A DNA stretch of 64,000 nucleotides from Luteimonas gilva (lineage in GTDB: Bacteria > Pseudomonadota > Gammaproteobacteria > Xanthomonadales > Xanthomonadaceae), in the NCBI RefSeq assembly GCF_005239095.1, contig NZ_SZUA01000001.1, positions 1,097,049 to 1,161,048 of the forward strand. Direction: 5' to 3'. Below the pieces are notes generated by a model, which saw only the letters and a list, made by a program, of their open reading frames with translations, was not told the origin of the DNA and did no database searches. A program made the translations under genes and the position numbers. Position 1 is the stretch's first letter, and each line of letters begins with the position of its first letter. Positions 45,821-57,253 of the stretch are shown in pieces.

Positions 45821-45838
45821 CCGTCATATTCCGGTCAT
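45821..45838 (+). promoter_or_regulatory. Pho-box-like direct repeat upstream of the porin gene
   Basis: CCGTCAT, four bases, CGGTCAT: two seven-base direct repeats with the spacing of PhoB sites (consensus CTGTCAT-N4-CTGTCAT). It lies right after the nth stop codon, 140 bp before the porin start. Motif match only. Confidence 0.55.
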
Positions 45839-45910
45839 TACCCGGACAAAACGGCCTGCGATCCTCCGCCGCGCCGCTCGGAAGACCGCGAAGCCCGGAA
45901 TTAAGACAGG

Positions 45911-47420: not shown

Positions 47421-47438
47421 TTGTCATCGCATTGTCAC
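47421..47438 (+). promoter_or_regulatory. pstS: Pho box upstream of pstS
   Basis: TTGTCAT-CGCA-TTGTCAC: near-perfect Pho box with two half-sites and four-base spacer, about 65 bp before the pstS start. TTATGA at 47446-47451 could be the -10. Confidence 0.8.
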
Positions 47439-47503
47439 GGGACCGTTATGAAATGCGCGCGGACGGGCTGGGGCCCGTACTTTTCCTCCAAGGAGTCGCA
47501 CCC

Positions 47504-48520
47504 GTGTTCAAGACCCATTACCGCGTCGCGGCCATCGCGCTCGCGACCGCCTTCGCAGGCAACGCCTTCGCCGCCGACGTCACCGGCGCCGGCGCCTCTT
47601 TCATCTACCCGGTCATGTCCAAGTGGTCGGCCGACTACAGCAAGGCCACCGGCAAGAAGGTCAACTATCAGTCGATCGGTTCCGGCGGCGGCATCGCCCA
47701 GATCAAGGCCGGCACGGTCGATTTCGGCTCCTCCGACGCCCCGATGAAGCCCGACGAACTGGCTAAGTTCGGCCTGGCCCAATTCCCCTCGGTGATCGGC
47801 GGCGTGGTGCCGGTGATCAACGTCCCGGGCGTGCCTTCCGGCGCGATGAAGCTGGACGGCGAAACCCTGGGCAACATCTTCCTGGGCAAGATCACCAAGT
47901 GGAACGATCCGGCCATCGTCGCCATGAACGGCGGCGTCAACCTGCCCGACAAGAAGATCACCGTCGTGCACCGCTCGGACGGTTCGGGCACCACCTTCAA
48001 CTTCGTCAACTACTTGTCCAAGGTCAACGCCGAGTGGAAGACCAAGGTCGGCGAAGGCACGTCGGTGAAGTGGCCGACCGGCATCGGCGGCAAGGGCAAC
48101 GAAGGCGTGGCCGCGTACGTCAAGCAGATCCAGGGCGGCATCGGCTACGTCGAACTGTCCTACGCGCTGCAGAACAAGATGGCCTATTCGCGCATGAAGA
48201 ACGCCGCCGGCAACTACGTGCTGCCGACCGACGAAACCTTCGGCGCCGCGGCCGCCAGCGCCGACTGGGCCAACGCCAAGGATTTCTACCTGGTGATGAC
48301 CAACGCGCCGGGCGAGAACTCCTGGCCGATCACCGCCACCAACTTCATCCTGATGTACAAGCAGCCCAAGAACGCCGACGGCGCCAAGAACGCCAAGGAA
48401 TTCTTCAAGTGGGTCTACGCCAACGGCGACGCGCAGGCCAAGGCGCTCGACTACGTGCCGCTGCCGGACGCTCTGGTCAAGCAGATCGACGCCTACTGGG
48501 CGCAGAACATGGGCTACTGA
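47504..48520 (+). CDS. pstS: Phosphate ABC transporter substrate-binding protein PstS (soluble form)
   Basis: Periplasmic phosphate receptor of 338 residues. GTG start 47504 eight bases after AAGGAG; signal VFKTHYRVAAIALATAFAGN AFA. Ligand motifs: GAGASFIYPVMSKW, SIGSGGGIAQIKAGTVDFGS and HRSDGSGTTFNFVNYLSK. It has a type I signal, unlike the lipoprotein paralogue at 48758. Followed by a strong terminator, so expressed from its own Pho promoter. Confidence 0.96.
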   Translation: MFKTHYRVAAIALATAFAGNAFAADVTGAGASFIYPVMSKWSADYSKATGKKVNYQSIGSGGGIAQIKAGTVDFGSSDAPMKPDELAKFGLAQFPSVIGGVVPVINVPGVPSGAMKLDGETLGNIFLGKITKWNDPAIVAMNGGVNLPDKKITVVHRSDGSGTTFNFVNYLSKVNAEWKTKVGEGTSVKWPTGIGGKGNEGVAAYVKQIQGGIGYVELSYALQNKMAYSRMKNAAGNYVLPTDETFGAAAASADWANAKDFYLVMTNAPGENSWPITATNFILMYKQPKNADGAKNAKEFFKWVYANGDAQAKALDYVPLPDALVKQIDAYWAQNMGY

Positions 48521-48692: not shown

Positions 48693-48757
48693 AAAAACAT
48701 CATTTCATAGCGGCATCTCGTCGGCAGGCTATGCCGACACGCCGTATGGAGCGCCGC

Positions 48758-49852
48758 ATGAACGCCACCCCCCTTCGCCTGGCCGTCCTGGCCTGTTCAG
48801 TGACCCTGCTCCTGGCCGCGTGCAAGGGCGGCGACAACGCGGCGGCTCCCGGCACCGGCAACCAGGCTCCGAACGCCGCCGCGGCCCCGGCCGGCGACAA
48901 GAAAGTCGCCGAGATCACCGGCGCCGGCGCGACCTTCATCTATCCGCTGCTGTCGCGCTGGTCCGCGGACTACAACCAGCAGACCGGCAACAAAGTGAAT
49001 TACCAATCGATCGGCTCCGGCGGCGGCATCGCCCAGATCAAGGCCGGCACGGTAGATTTCGGCTCCAGCGACAAGCCGCTGTCCAGCGAAGAACTCGCCG
49101 CCGCGGGCCTGGGCCAGTTCCCGTCCGCGATCGGCGGCGTGGTGCCGGTGGTCAATCTGGAGGGCGTCGAAGCCGGCAAGCTGCGCCTGACCGGCGCGCT
49201 GCTGGGCGACATCTTCCTCGGCAAGATCACCGCCTGGAACGATGCGGCGATCGCCGCCGCCAATCCCGGCGCCAAGCTGCCTTCGACCAAGATCAACATC
49301 GTCCACCGCTCCGACGGTTCGGGCACCACCTTCAACTTCTCCAACTACCTGTCGAAGGTGAATGCGGAGTGGAAGTCGAAAGTCGGCGAAGGCACTTCGG
49401 TGCAGTGGCCGGGCGGCGTCGGCGGCAAGGGCAACGAAGGCGTGGCTTCGTACGTGAAGCAGATCAAGGGCTCGATCGGCTACGTCGAACTGGCCTACGC
49501 GCTGCAGAACAAGATGACCTACATCTCGCTGCAGAACGCCTCCGGGAATTGGGTGCAACCCAGCGCCGAATCGTTCCAGGCCGCCGCGGCGACCGCCGAC
49601 TGGGCGAACGCCAAGGATTTCAACCTGGTCATCACCAACGCTTCCGGCGCGGACGCGTGGCCGATCACCGCCACCAATTTCATCCTGATGTACAAGCAGC
49701 CGAAGGACGCGCAGCGCTCGAAGGATGCGATGGCCTTCTTCAAGTGGGCGTTCGAAAACGGACAGCCGCAGGCGCAGGCGCTGGATTACGTGCCTCTGCC
49801 GGCGGAGCTGGTGAAGCAAGTCGAAGCGTATTGGGCGGCGGAGTTCAAGTGA
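48758..49852 (+). CDS. pstS: Second PstS paralogue, predicted lipoprotein
   Basis: PstS-like protein of 364 residues closely matching the upstream PstS (shared blocks VNYQSIGSGGGIAQIKAGTV, HRSDGSGTTFNF, GIGGKGNEGVA-like GVGGKGNEGVASYVKQIKGS). Its signal ends LAACKGG, a lipobox, so the mature protein starts at Cys and is membrane-anchored, with an Ala/Gly/Pro-rich spacer (APGTGNQAPNAAAAPAGDKK). ATG 48758 has GGAG upstream. It precedes pstC across a family-E repeat. Different anchoring suggests different localisation or affinity from PstS1. Confidence 0.93.
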   Translation: MNATPLRLAVLACSVTLLLAACKGGDNAAAPGTGNQAPNAAAAPAGDKKVAEITGAGATFIYPLLSRWSADYNQQTGNKVNYQSIGSGGGIAQIKAGTVDFGSSDKPLSSEELAAAGLGQFPSAIGGVVPVVNLEGVEAGKLRLTGALLGDIFLGKITAWNDAAIAAANPGAKLPSTKINIVHRSDGSGTTFNFSNYLSKVNAEWKSKVGEGTSVQWPGGVGGKGNEGVASYVKQIKGSIGYVELAYALQNKMTYISLQNASGNWVQPSAESFQAAAATADWANAKDFNLVITNASGADAWPITATNFILMYKQPKDAQRSKDAMAFFKWAFENGQPQAQALDYVPLPAELVKQVEAYWAAEFK

Positions 49853-52908: not shown

Positions 52909-53619
52909 ATGAACACGGCCCAGCCCCACGACCACATCGTCAAGAGCTACGACGAAGAGCAGCAGCGGCTGCACAACGAAATCCTGCGCATGGGCGAGAT
53001 GTCGGTCGCGCAGCTGGAGGCCGCGCTGGACGTGGTCGAGCGCCGCGACGACAAAGCCGCCGAGCGGATCATCGCCAACGACGAGGCGATCGACAGCCTC
53101 GAGCAGGAGATCAGCCACGACGTGATGCGCCTGGCGCTGCGCGGACCGATGGCCAGCGACCTGCGCGTGATCCTCGCCGCGCTGCGCATCGCCGCCGACA
53201 TCGAACGCGTAGGCGACTACGCGGCCAACGTCGCCAAGCGTTCGATGGCGCTGAACATGGCGCCGCCGATTCCGCACACCAACGGCCTGCGCGCGCTCGG
53301 CGGCCTCGCCGTGCAGCAGTTGCGCGACGTGCTGGCCGCCTACCGCGACTTGGACGTGGACGCCGCCCAGCGCGTGCGCGCCCGCGACGCCGAGCTCGAC
53401 ACCCAGTACACCAGCCTGTTCCGCGAACTGCTGACCTACATGATGGAAGACGCGCGCGCGATCACCCCGTGCACGCACCTGCTGTTCATGGCCAAGAACC
53501 TGGAGCGGATCGGCGACCACGCCACCAACATCGCCGAGAACATCTGGTTCCGCGTGCACGGCGAGAATCGCGCGCTGCCGCCGCGCGAGAAGCGCGACGA
53601 CACCAACACCGCGACCTGA
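52909..53619 (+). CDS. phoU: Phosphate signalling protein PhoU
   Basis: Negative regulator linking PstB to PhoR; 236 residues forming two three-helix bundles. The repeated motifs are ASDLRVILAALRIAADIERV and PCTHLLFMAKNLERIGDHAT, with RxGD/RIGDH metal-binding signatures. Start ATG 52909 gives MNTAQPHDHIVKSYDEEQQR. Separated from pstB by 160 bp without a clear terminator. No phoB or phoR in the window. Confidence 0.96.
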   Translation: MNTAQPHDHIVKSYDEEQQRLHNEILRMGEMSVAQLEAALDVVERRDDKAAERIIANDEAIDSLEQEISHDVMRLALRGPMASDLRVILAALRIAADIERVGDYAANVAKRSMALNMAPPIPHTNGLRALGGLAVQQLRDVLAAYRDLDVDAAQRVRARDAELDTQYTSLFRELLTYMMEDARAITPCTHLLFMAKNLERIGDHATNIAENIWFRVHGENRALPPREKRDDTNTAT

Positions 53620-53660
53620 TCCGCTGCAGATACCAAGCCCTTTCGCAATGGAACGGGCTT

Positions 53661-53744
53661 AGAAGCGGCTTCGGCCGCGAGCTCTTTCCCGCACATCGCC
53701 GCGATTTGAAGGAAGAACTCGCGGCTGAAGCCGCTCCTACAAAG
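53661..53744. repeat. Family-A palindromic repeat
   Basis: A element with a slightly shortened left arm (AGAAGCGGCTTCGGCCGCGA) and right arm GCGGCTGAAGCCGCTCCTAC. Lies between phoU and the ECF sigma gene. Confidence 0.85.
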
Positions 53745-53899
53745 TCTGGACTAAGGCCAGACCTGCGAGATAGCTAAACGCCAGCTGAAGACAGCCCGAA
53801 AAAGGGCCAATCCGCGCGCACCCGCGCGGTGCCATCCATGACTCTGGTAAGGGGTCCGGCCACCGACGATCCGGATATTCTCCGCATCGAGGTCAACCC

Positions 53900-54439
53900 A
53901 TGGCGGCCAACCCGAGTCCCGAGGAATTCCAAGCGGCGCAGCGCGGCGATCGCGCCGCGTTGGAAAGCCTGTTGGCGCATTCGCGCCAAGACCTGCGCCG
54001 CTACGCCGAATACCACTGCTCGATCAACGACGTCGAAGACGCGGTGCAGGAAAGCCTGTTCCTGGTAGCGCGCAAGATCGGCCACCTGCGCGCGATCGAG
54101 GCCTATGCCTCGTGGCTGTTCCGGATCGTCAAACGCGAGTGCAACCGGCTCAAACGCGGCCTGCGGCGCATGGTGCTGCAGCCTAGCCTGGAAGAGATCG
54201 ACGGCCCGCACTATCCGCCTCCGGACGGCCTGCTCCGCGATCTGGCGCGCACTTTGCAGGCCATGCCCGCGCACTACCGCGAGATCGTGCTGCTGCGCGA
54301 TTACGAAGGCTTGAGCATGGCCGAGATCGCCGCCCGCCTGGGCCTGCATTTGGAAGCCGCCAAGGCGCGTCTGCACCGCGCCCGCGGCTTGGCCCGGCAA
54401 TTGTTGTCGGTTCCGGAGGCGCCGCTCATGCCGGCTTAA
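53900..54439 (+). CDS. ECF-type RNA polymerase sigma factor
   Basis: Sigma-70 family factor of 179 residues with only regions 2 and 4: region 2 QAAQRGDRAALESLLAHSRQ and DVEDAVQESLFLVARKIGHL, region 4 HYREIVLLRDYEGLSMAEIA. No anti-sigma gene is adjacent. Its stop is 82 bp before an EF-hand/EGKCG precursor gene, so it probably controls the RiPP operon, as ECF factors do for related metallophore operons in other bacteria. Trigger (perhaps copper) is inference. Confidence 0.88.
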   Translation: MAANPSPEEFQAAQRGDRAALESLLAHSRQDLRRYAEYHCSINDVEDAVQESLFLVARKIGHLRAIEAYASWLFRIVKRECNRLKRGLRRMVLQPSLEEIDGPHYPPPDGLLRDLARTLQAMPAHYREIVLLRDYEGLSMAEIAARLGLHLEAAKARLHRARGLARQLLSVPEAPLMPA

Positions 54440-54522
54440 CCCCTTCCTGGCTAGCGTGCCCGCCACCGGCCAGCCCATCGAATACATCTACGCGGCCTAG
54501 CCGCATTTAGGGAGGCAATACC

Positions 54523-54921
54523 ATGTCCAACAAGAAACCCGTCGCCATCGCTCTCGGCACCGCGCTCGCCGGCGGCCTGGTCCTATCCGGTTCGGCGTTC
54601 GCGATGCAGCCGCTGGCGCAAGGCTATCTGCTCAGCGCACAGGACGCCGGCAAGGCGGCGATGAAAGAAGACAAGGCGAAAGAAGGCAAGTGCGGCATGG
54701 ACGTGATGGACACCGACAAGGACGGCAAGGTGTCGCGCGCCGAATTCAACGCCAAGCACGCCGACAAGGCCGAGCAAGCCAAGTTCGACAAAGCCGACGC
54801 CAACAAGGACGGCTTCATCGACGCGACCGAAAGCAAGGCGCACAAGGAAGGCAGCTGCGGCGGCGACAAGAAGGCCGGCGAAGGCAAGTGCGGCGAGGGC
54901 AAGTGCGGCGGCAGCGTCTGA
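54523..54921 (+). CDS. hvfA: Predicted copper-binding RiPP precursor (HvfA-like) with two EF-hands
   Basis: Precursor of 132 residues. Signal peptide [20 protein letters not shown] ending about residue 27. EGKCG motifs at 54-58, 120-124 and 125-129, and a variant EGSCG at 109-113, so four Cys (57, 112, 123, 128). Between the first and the others are two canonical EF-hand loops: D63-x-D65-x-D67-G...E74 ([12 protein letters not shown]) and D92-x-N94-x-D96-G...E103 ([12 protein letters not shown]). EGKCG Cys is what HvfB/HvfC convert to copper-binding oxazolone/thioamide pairs in Haemophilus; the EF-hands are an addition I do not know from that system. AGGGAGG precedes ATG 54523. Confidence 0.85.
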
Positions 54922-54943
54922 CGCATTCGCTTCTCCGCTCATC

Positions 54944-55789
54944 ATGAAGTTGGCCGAAGCCAGCGCAGGCCTCGGACTGCGGCGCGCCCTGATGGGCGCG
55001 TTGCGGTCTGCGGACGCCGACGCGGTCGATTTCCTGGAATGCGCGCCGGAAAACTGGATCGGCGTCGGCGGCCGCCTCGGCGACGCGTTCGCCGAGCTCG
55101 CTTCGCGCCGCCCGCTCACCTGCCACGGCCTGTCGCTCTCGCTCGGCGGCACCGAACCGCTGGACGAGACTTTCCTGCAACGCTTGCGCCGCTTCCTCGA
55201 CCGCAATGCCGTCGCTCTGTACAGCGAACACCTCAGCTATAGCGCCGACGACGGCCATCTGTACGATCTGTTGCCGATTCCGTTCACCGAAGAAGCGGTG
55301 GGCCACGTCGCGGCGCGCATCCGTCGCGTGCAGGATGCGCTAGGCCGCCGGATCGCGGTCGAGAACGTCTCCTACTACGCCGCGCCTTTCCAGGCGATGG
55401 CCGAAGCCGATTTCGTCGGCGCGGTGCTGCAGGAAGCGGACTGCGACTTGCTGCTGGACGTGAACAACATCTACGTCAACAGCATCAACCACGGCTACGA
55501 CGCTTTCGAATTCCTGGCGCGGATGCCGGGCGCGCGGATCGCCAGCTATCACATCGCCGGCCATTACGACGAAGCCGACGACCTGAAAGTCGATACCCAC
55601 GGCGCGCCGGTCAAGAACGATGTCTGGGCGCTGCTCGCCGAGGCCTACCGCGTGCACGGGGTGCGCCCGACCCTGCTGGAACGCGATTTCAATTTCCCGC
55701 CGCTGGAAACTTTGCTCGCCGAAGTCGCGCGGATCCGCGAATCGCAACGCACGGCGCAACCGGCCCTGGATGCGGCGAGCCATGGCTGA
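54944..55789 (+). CDS. hvfB: DUF692 multinuclear iron enzyme (HvfB/BufB/MbnB-like RiPP maturase)
   Basis: DUF692 protein of 281 residues with a TIM-barrel and a di- or tri-iron site. Candidate ligands: H61 (CHGLSLS), E95/H96 (YSEHLSY), E140 (VENVSYY), D172/N174 (DVNNIYVN), H183, H203 and H207 (YHIAGHYDE), D218/H219 (DTHGAP), E246 (LERDF), all positions conserved in MbnB-type enzymes. It lies 22 bp after the precursor gene. Family members oxidise Cys to oxazolone/thioamide or thiooxazole using Fe and O2. Its stop overlaps the next start by eight bases. Confidence 0.92.
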
Positions 55790-56546
55790 GGCGCCGATCG
55801 CGTTACGCGAGCAGCAATTCGCGCTCGCGCGCCATGTGCGCGACCCGGCAGCGAACCTTCCGCCGCCGGACATCGAAGACCGGCGTTTGGCGGTCTATCG
55901 CGAATTGTTCTACAACAACGTCGACAGCCTGCTGGCCGGCAATTTCCCGGTCATCCGAAAAACGCTTTCGGATGCCGATTGGCATGCGCGGGTACGCGCG
56001 TTCTTCGCCGAACACCGCTGCCGCACGCCCTTGTTCACCGAGATCGGCCGCGAGTTCATCCGTTTCCTCGACGCGCGCCAGGAAGCCGGCGCCGACGATC
56101 CGCCCTGGCTGGCGGAGTTGGCGCACTACGAATGGGTCGAACTGGCGCTGCAGATCTCCGACGAACCGGCGCCCGCGCACGACCCCGGCGGCGATCTGCT
56201 GCAAGGCCGTCCGCTGGTTTCGCCGCAGGCGTGGGCGCTGGCCTATCGCTGGCCGGTGCAGCGCATCGGCCCGGAATACCGGCCCAACGAAGCGCCGGAT
56301 GCGCCCACCTTGCTGCTGGTGCGGCGCGATGCCGGCGGCGACGTGCGCTTCGCCGAAATTTCGCCGCTGGTCTATCGCCTCTTGGAATTGCTGGGCGGCG
56401 AAACGCCGCGCACCGGACGGGAATCCCTGGGCTTGCTCGCGAAAGAAGCCGGCGCGTCCGACATCGATGCTTTCATCGTAGAAGGCGCCACGATGCTCCG
56501 GCGGATGCGCGAGGAAGGCTCTTTGCTCGGTACGCAGAGCTCCTGA
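55782..56546 (+). CDS. hvfC: DUF2063 RiPP-binding partner protein (HvfC/BufC-like)
   Basis: Protein of 254 residues with the DUF2063 putative DNA-binding-type N-terminal domain ([20 protein letters not shown] and [20 protein letters not shown]). In Hvf/bufferin operons this partner recognises the precursor and forms a complex with the DUF692 enzyme. Overlaps hvfB by eight bases (ATGGCTGA), so the three genes form one translationally coupled operon. The DoxX-like gene often present in these clusters is absent; rnt follows. Confidence 0.9.
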
Positions 56547-56572
56547 TCGGCCGCGTCTGCTAGGCTTGACGC

Positions 56573-57253
56573 ATGACCCAAGCCGAATCCGCCGTTCTTC
56601 CCTCCCCGCCCGTTTTCCGCAAGATGATCGAACGCTTCCGCGGCTTCCTGCCGGTGGTGGTGGACGTGGAGACCGGCGGTTTCGACTGGAACAAGCACGC
56701 CTTGCTGGAAATCGCGGCGGTGCCGATCGATCTGGACGAGCAAGGCCGCTACGTCTGCGGACCCGGCATCAGCGCCCACGTGATGCCCGCGCCCGGCACC
56801 GAAATCGACCCGAAGTCGCTGGAAGTGACCGGCATCGACATCGACCATCCTTTCCGCGACGCCAAATCCGAGCGCGAAGCTTTGGACGCGGTGTTCGCGC
56901 CCGTGCGCGAGGCCCTGCGCAAGCACAACTGCCAGCGCGCGATCCTGGTCGGCCACAACGCGCATTTCGATCTGAACTTCCTCAACGCCGCCGTGGCGCG
57001 CTGCGGCCACAAGCGCAATCCGTTCCATCCTTTCAGCGTGTTCGACACGGTCACGCTGGCCGGCGTCGCGTACGGCCAAACCGTACTGGCCCGCGCCGTG
57101 CACGCCGCGGGCCTGGAATGGAATTCGGAATACGCGCACTCGGCGGTGTACGACGCCGAACGCACGGCGCAGCTGTTCTGCAGGATCGCGAACGCGTGGC
57201 CGCAACGGTACGCGACCGCAGCCGCGGAAACCGTTTCAGCCGCCGATTATTGA
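56573..57253 (+). CDS. rnt: Ribonuclease T
   Basis: DEDDh 3'-5' exonuclease that trims tRNA 3' ends; 226 residues. Exo [21 protein letters not shown], Exo [18 protein letters not shown], Exo [20 protein letters not shown] with the catalytic His. Starts [20 protein letters not shown]. 26 bp after hvfC; may be in the same transcript. Confidence 0.96.

Follow-up and report, generated by a model that had tools for sequence, protein, structure and literature searches.

An EGKCG/EF-hand precursor operon in Luteimonas gilva and its relatives, with an ECF sigma factor gene as an optional layer

What does an exported protein that carries both EGKCG motifs and EF hands do, and what parts do calcium and a neighbouring sigma factor gene play? 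A locus of Luteimonas gilva raises this question; it lies in a stretch of 64,000 nucleotides that was analyzed as a whole (the window). The operon bears on a wider issue, the possible link between Ca2+ and metal uptake through EfhP of Pseudomonas aeruginosa. The accounts of EGKCG/EF-hand proteins that we consulted hold no report of copper and calcium measured on one modified protein of this kind. The combination of EF hands and EGKCG is itself already in print (PMC12452194, PMC11559002). What appears new here is a flanked layout with fixed spacing, and a sigma layer that is optional and comes with an operator-like repeat; we found no report of either arrangement in the text passages seen from the literature on EF-hand, MNIO, and EGKCG systems, and a literature search for an ECF sigma factor with DUF692 in Xanthomonas found none.

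Gene content and family of the operon

Four genes follow one another on the forward strand. The first encodes an ECF sigma factor of 179 aa (53900..54439; PF08281, E 5.8e-15, and PF04542), and the second an EGKCG/EF-hand RiPP precursor of 132 aa that is predicted to be exported (54523..54921; NF050137, PF13202, and EGxCG motifs). They are followed by an HvfB-type MNIO (DUF692) RiPP maturase gene (54944..55789; PF05114, NF003818) and an HvfC-type partner gene (DUF2063/NGO1945_C; 55782..56546; NF050145), whose ATG lies inside the MNIO frame, with an 8 bp overlap. The genes pst (named by eye) and phoU (PF01895) precede the operon, and an exonuclease gene (PF00929) comes after it. The order of the DUF692 and DUF2063 genes behind the precursor and of the ECF sigma gene ahead of it agrees with the original prediction, both in the open reading frames and in the profile matches. 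No anti-sigma gene was recognized from phoU to the precursor, and Rfam gave zero matches within 53500-57000. The operon has no DoxX gene; the genome's closest DoxX match is outside the window, ~1.4 kb beyond its left end and ~56 kb away from the operon. PF05114 had one match in the whole genome, the MNIO gene of the operon.

A profile search, proposed with the original prediction, placed all three proteins in HvfABC-type families. The precursor scored 25.8 against NCBIfam NF050137, the "HvfA family oxazolone/thioamide-modified RiPP metallophore" (cut-off 19.5), the MNIO 427 against NF003818 (HvfB family; cut-off 360) and 338 bits against PF05114, and the HvfC protein 300 against NF050145 (cut-off 142). 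The BufB model NF050167 gave the MNIO 270.7, under its cut-off of 310. Lanmodulin and XopAW models gave weak matches, far under cut-off. Among solved chains, 3bww was the best match of the MNIO; conserved His/Glu/Asp blocks were kept in the alignment, including LLERDFNFP, and these blocks presumably hold the iron ligands, going by the work on MbnB. The HvfC protein matched 3dee (E 2e-7). The genetic traits of an HvfA/oxazolin-type system (captophorin) are found: a precursor with a signal peptide (by eye) and repeated EGKCG, an HvfB-type MNIO, and an HvfC-type DUF2063 partner.

The operon shares an EGKCG precursor, an MNIO, and an RRE partner with the oxazolin system HvfABC of Haemophilus influenzae, the fontiphorin system FonABC, and "captophorins" generally. 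The products of HvfABC and FonABC are described as 5-thiooxazoles that bind Cu (PMC13419390, PMC13097082), and the same is predicted for the system in the window. The term EF-hand is absent from the main texts of these two papers, while the precursor in the window has two EF hands; Hvf has a DoxX-like gene (HvfX), which this operon lacks. Bufferin Buf1 clusters are also reported with an MNIO, DUF2063, and a sigma gene, but their precursor is of the DUF2282 type and they carry the anti-sigma factor NrsF (PMC12452194), in contrast to the EGKCG precursor here and an operon with no anti-sigma gene recognized next to it. A Buf1 bufferin was ruled out, with DUF2282 absent from the Pfam matches and the BufB model under its cut-off.

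We searched 149 whole genomes of the family with the precursor and obtained matches in 119, many through the EF hands alone. From these, 80 neighborhoods were picked by hand, of which 75 had an MNIO gene; together with the window they form a set of 76 loci from 75 genomes. Five neighborhoods whose stretch gave no MNIO match were left out (L074, L082, L098, L104, L108; L098 starts at a contig end). In each of the 76 loci the MNIO gene is preceded by a cysteine-rich precursor ORF and followed by an HvfC-like ORF. Of these Lysobacteraceae loci, 67 of 76 have phoU upstream in the same orientation. Since gene order and motifs recur in diverged relatives, the operon is not a product of chance. It is real and conserved, and it belongs to the published class of EGKCG/EF-hand chimaeras that have MNIO and DUF2063 proteins as partners (PMC12452194).

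Layout of the precursor

The precursor begins with a Sec-type signal peptide (residues 1-27, 54523..54603, +), which was recognized by eye and resembles the N-terminus in an alignment consensus. An EGKCG (Cys57; 54682..54696, +) stands 6 residues ahead of EF-hand loop 1 (residues 63-74; 54709..54744, +), and loop 2 spans residues 92-103 (54796..54831, +). Behind the EF pair come an EGSCG found in the motif scan (Cys112; 54847..54861, +) and tandem EGxCG motifs (Cys123, Cys128; 54880..54909, +). The predicted count of three EGKCG and one EGSCG was right, and both loops had been called canonical, as they are: PF13202 matched two stretches (39.8 bits, cut-off 25.9), with ligands at positions 1, 3, 5, and 12 and Gly at 6; position 3 of loop 2 is Asn.

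Two EF-hand loops are encoded in 60 of the 76 loci, a share biased upward because the query itself has EF hands; the other 16 carry EGKCG-type motifs only. The fusion whose conservation was in question holds for the 60 and does not extend to the 16. Cysteines after the signal peptide number 1 to 11 per precursor. A tree of MNIO + HvfC (quick search, SH-aLRT support only) requires at least five changes of EF-hand presence; its rows closest to the window come from three loci of the same genus.

In 57 of the 60 EF-hand precursors the EF pair has cysteines to its left and right; in two they occur on the N side only, and in one on the C side only. Going by the motifs listed, about 289 of the 333 flanking cysteines sit in EGKCG or EGSCG. 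EGKCG is the most frequent frame (101 on the N side, 172 on the C side), ahead of EGSCG (14 and 12). The tandem EGxCGEGxCG is found N-terminal to the pair in 36/60, C-terminal to it in 57/60, and at both places in 35/60. The spacing is also regular: the last N-side Cys precedes loop 1 by 6 residues in 50/60, as in the window, and the first C-side Cys follows the end of loop 2 by 9 residues in 26/60. Glu occupies position 12 of both loops in 60/60, and loop 2 keeps Asp at 5 and Gly at 6 in all 60; the search pattern accepted Asp or Glu at position 12 and itself imposed Asp at position 1.

The published class is close to this arrangement. The Buf_EGKCG|EF-hand_5 chimaera is described as exported, with EGKCG cysteines, two PF13202 EF hands, and MNIO and DUF2063 genes, and the precursor in the window likewise joins two EF hands to an EGKCG segment. 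The text of PMC12452194 describes a short EGKCG domain with the EF hands fused at its C-terminus; in the window EGSCG and the tandem come after the EF pair, so that EGxCG motifs stand on both sides, a comparison made with the text description of a set that may include flanked members. The passages seen of that paper connect sigma genes with Buf1 clusters and not with the EGKCG/EF-hand group. EfhP (PA4107, with PA4106/PA4105) is similar in its two canonical EF hands, four EGKCG repeats (PMC11559002), DUF692/DUF2063 neighbors (PMC4053335), and predicted periplasmic location. Work on EfhP has concerned Ca2+ binding and the regulation of iron and virulence, and the text seen of the three reports (PMC4053335, PMC9132961, PMC11559002) does not mention an adjacent sigma gene.

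Outside the family, we searched 274 genomes of the class and obtained 49 matches, most through the EF hands alone. Among the eight best loci (L192-L199), six have the flanked layout with two EF loops (L192, L193, L195-L198), L194 has it with one EF loop as called by the pattern, and the EGxCG frame is absent from L199. The flanked EGKCG/EF-hand layout extends beyond Lysobacteraceae. The precursors of L193, L195 (1480-1893), and L197, which are of the flanked type and come from other families, had no MNIO match within ~1.5 kb on each side; their enzyme may be encoded elsewhere. In Bordetella (L131), Cupriavidus cauae (L133), and Nitrosomonas (L132, L137, L140), and in Lysobacter loci away from phoU, EGKCG stands ahead of the EF pair and is missing behind it. 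The MNIO loci L105 (G128), L128, L130, L134-L136, L138, and L139 had no phoU match in the stretch and carry EGKCG before the EF hands only; G128 has a second, phoU-linked locus, L035, and so does Lysobacter antibioticus HS124 (L136), namely L127.

The sigma factor gene and upstream elements

The original prediction gave the operon "its own ECF sigma factor", which goes too far. Among the 76 loci, 30 have an adjacent sigma gene, which in one of them (L066) is a short ORF only, and 46 do not. In the four-row clade of the window it is present in three and gone in Luteimonas cucumeris (L034), where the operon is kept. L034 retains a short piece resembling the 3' end of the sigma gene, and its genome holds no close copy elsewhere (best 33% identity). 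Because it is adjacent in 30/76 only and gone in L. cucumeris with the operon kept, the sigma gene is an optional layer of the operon.

Does the sigma factor control the operon where it is kept? It is possible, though short of an even chance, that it does not: the sigma gene would be a neighbor with targets elsewhere, and the operon would run on a housekeeping promoter. This is consistent with the 46 loci that have no adjacent sigma gene, and with the tree, on which sigma presence needs at least ten changes. It is also consistent with the promoter region of the window, where a pattern search found no classical ECF promoter before the precursor. A possible promoter element, TGGCTAGCGTG (54448..54458, +), is identical in L034 despite the loss of the sigma gene; it has one mismatch in L032 and two in L033.

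Against this stand the position of the gene, as the adjacent sigma gene ends just 46-268 bp before the precursor, and a contrast in promoter boxes. We compared 22 sigma-bearing and 43 sigma-less representatives with six patterns in two windows each, and all P values are uncorrected. Housekeeping-type boxes (TAnnAT) were fewer in sigma-bearing loci, with 3/22 versus 16/43 at 30-100 bp before the precursor (P 0.08) and 3/22 versus 18/43 at 0-150 bp (P 0.026). At 30-100 bp, TAG[GC]AT gave 1/22 versus 13/43 (P 0.02), TANNNT 11/22 versus 26/43 (P 0.44), GGAAC-N14-18-[CG]GTC 2/22 versus 0/43 (P 0.11), and GGAAC alone 4/22 versus 1/43 (P 0.04). Over all 76 loci, the GGAAC type occurred in 5/30 sigma-bearing and 1/46 sigma-less loci. 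A list of boxes drawn up by eye from the same sequences, and hence circular, gave 11/22 versus 4/43 (P 0.0005). The contrast is a hint, short of proof, that the sigma factor may drive the operon where it is kept.

A direct repeat, CTAAAC-N5-CTGAA with an 11-bp step, lies upstream of the sigma gene (53774..53789, +) and is a possible operator. With at most one mismatch it was found in 18/30 sigma-bearing and 0/46 sigma-less loci (shuffles, 0.1-0.2%), in rows that are related and in sequences where the repeat had first been spotted by eye. A slightly different pattern, searched up to 1.4 kb, gave 16/30 versus 0/46. The genome of the window has one match, as has the pattern read backwards, and the chance expectation in 64 kb at the same tolerance is 0.71, so a single match is not rare. 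Among 11 genomes of sigma-bearing relatives, nine had one match, G042 two, and G070 three; of seven sigma-less genomes, G123 had two and the other six none. Over these 18 genomes there were 16 matches versus 23 for the pattern read backwards. Only the place of the repeat before the sigma gene is therefore telling, since the backwards pattern gives as many matches or more genome-wide. By eye, the extra copies in G042, G070, and G123 have no evident tie to the operon; one of them, in L180 (G070) at ~1501, stands just before a small ORF that is followed by a YceI-like ORF.

A step of 11 bp fits a regulator of the OmpR/PhoB type. With phoU so near, the repeat could be thought a Pho box, a reading that we do not favor; by eye, the repeats of the pstS-like and porin-like genes read as the TTGTCAT type. 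Pho-box matches numbered 24 over the window against 27.9 expected, with no excess. Two tandem pstS-like genes (47432-48520 and 48731-49852, by eye) stand ahead of the pst genes and phoU. TTGTCAT repeats resembling Pho boxes occur before the first of them (47421-47448), and similar ones before a porin-like gene (45821-45848).

Proposed function of the product

We think it likely that the operon is of the HvfABC type (captophorin/oxazolin) and that its product is a Sec-exported, Ca2+-folded, Cu(I)-buffering thiooxazole protein, with the sigma factor as an option. From the relatives named above we infer modification, export, and the binding of copper and calcium. HvfC and HvfB would recognize the precursor in the cytoplasm with its signal peptide still in place; HvfA without signal peptide is reported to be modified less (PMC13419390). 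The enzymes would then oxidize EGKCG cysteines, most likely the tandem Cys123 and Cys128, and less surely Cys112 and Cys57. The modification was first predicted as oxazolone/thioamide; the product that HvfBC and FonBC make on EGKCG is now assigned as 5-thiooxazole (PMC13097082, PMC13419390), with -4 Da per modified Cys (PMC13419390). After export through Sec, the EF-hand pair would fold around Ca2+ in the periplasm and the flanking segments would bind Cu(I), thus buffering copper. Where the sigma gene is kept, we surmise that it is probably switched through the upstream direct repeat and would raise transcription of the operon under stress.

Some findings speak against a copper buffer: the result for a one-repeat FonA peptide, which bears on Cys57, the study of EfhP as a Ca2+/iron-response protein, and the operon without DoxX. 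In vitro, FonBC modified a two-repeat EGKCG peptide and not the one-repeat peptide (PMC13097082), and for this reason the lone N-side EGKCG (Cys57) may undergo little modification or none.

Whether calcium has a regulatory part is a separate question. The EF hands could serve a disordered low-complexity peptide as a structural spacer or as a module that keeps it soluble, with no regulatory part for Ca2+; we find this rather doubtful. The AlphaFold2 model of the mature protein is in keeping with it, since it has an isolated folded EF pair (at ~residues 32-81, mature numbering; pLDDT block means 79-88; first helix short, 32-35) between unstructured motif arms of low confidence. The model is weak overall (mean pLDDT 61.4), with only the EF pair confident, and the best listed Foldseek matches were mostly EF-hand proteins (best E 0.011, none under 0.001). 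The repeated changes of EF-hand presence on the tree would also suit a spacer. However, the ligand residues are kept and the step of 6 residues from Cys to loop recurs in 50/60, which is beyond what a spacer would need.

Conserved ligands also favor an alternative that we consider unlikely, namely an EfhP-like calcium sensor, in which the EF pair would sense periplasmic Ca2+ and the thiooxazole cysteines would report or gate iron or copper status; the product would serve signalling, not copper buffering. EfhP, with its EF hands, EGKCG repeats, and DUF692/DUF2063 neighbors, is reported to mediate Ca2+ responses and control of iron uptake (PMC4053335, PMC9132961, PMC11559002); it binds Ca2+ at 13.7 uM (PMC9132961), and iron sensing has been proposed for it (PMC11559002). 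Yet 16 of the 76 loci are without EF hands and still have EGKCG-type motifs, which fits metal binding as the main task, and 1 to 11 cysteines per copy suit capacity more than signalling. The same 16 loci also weigh against the calcium part of the reading that we prefer, since the core function does not need calcium.

It is quite unlikely that the EF-hand pair acts as a calcium-set clamp with export as the switch from substrate to copper trap. EGKCG lies directly against the shortened helix 1 of EF hand 1, and the C-side motifs come after the final helix of EF hand 2; on this reading, Ca2+ folding would for that reason draw the two thiooxazole arms together to form a single Cu(I) site. The calcium-poor cytoplasm would keep the arms open for HvfBC, the calcium-rich periplasm would close them, and the ECF gene of sigma-bearing lineages would answer to a dedicated response regulator at CTAAAC-N5-CTGAA.

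The roles of calcium and of the sigma factor are directly testable, because the operon is compact, the genome has a single MNIO match, and the relatives form a natural series that differs in the presence of EF hands and of the sigma gene. Two precursors in the set depart from the usual motif content. L090 (3821-4207) is an EF-hand precursor with no C-side cysteine and two cysteines left. L066 (1760-2185) has one EGKCG left, with the EF pair kept and a short sigma ORF, and looks like decay of the copper part.
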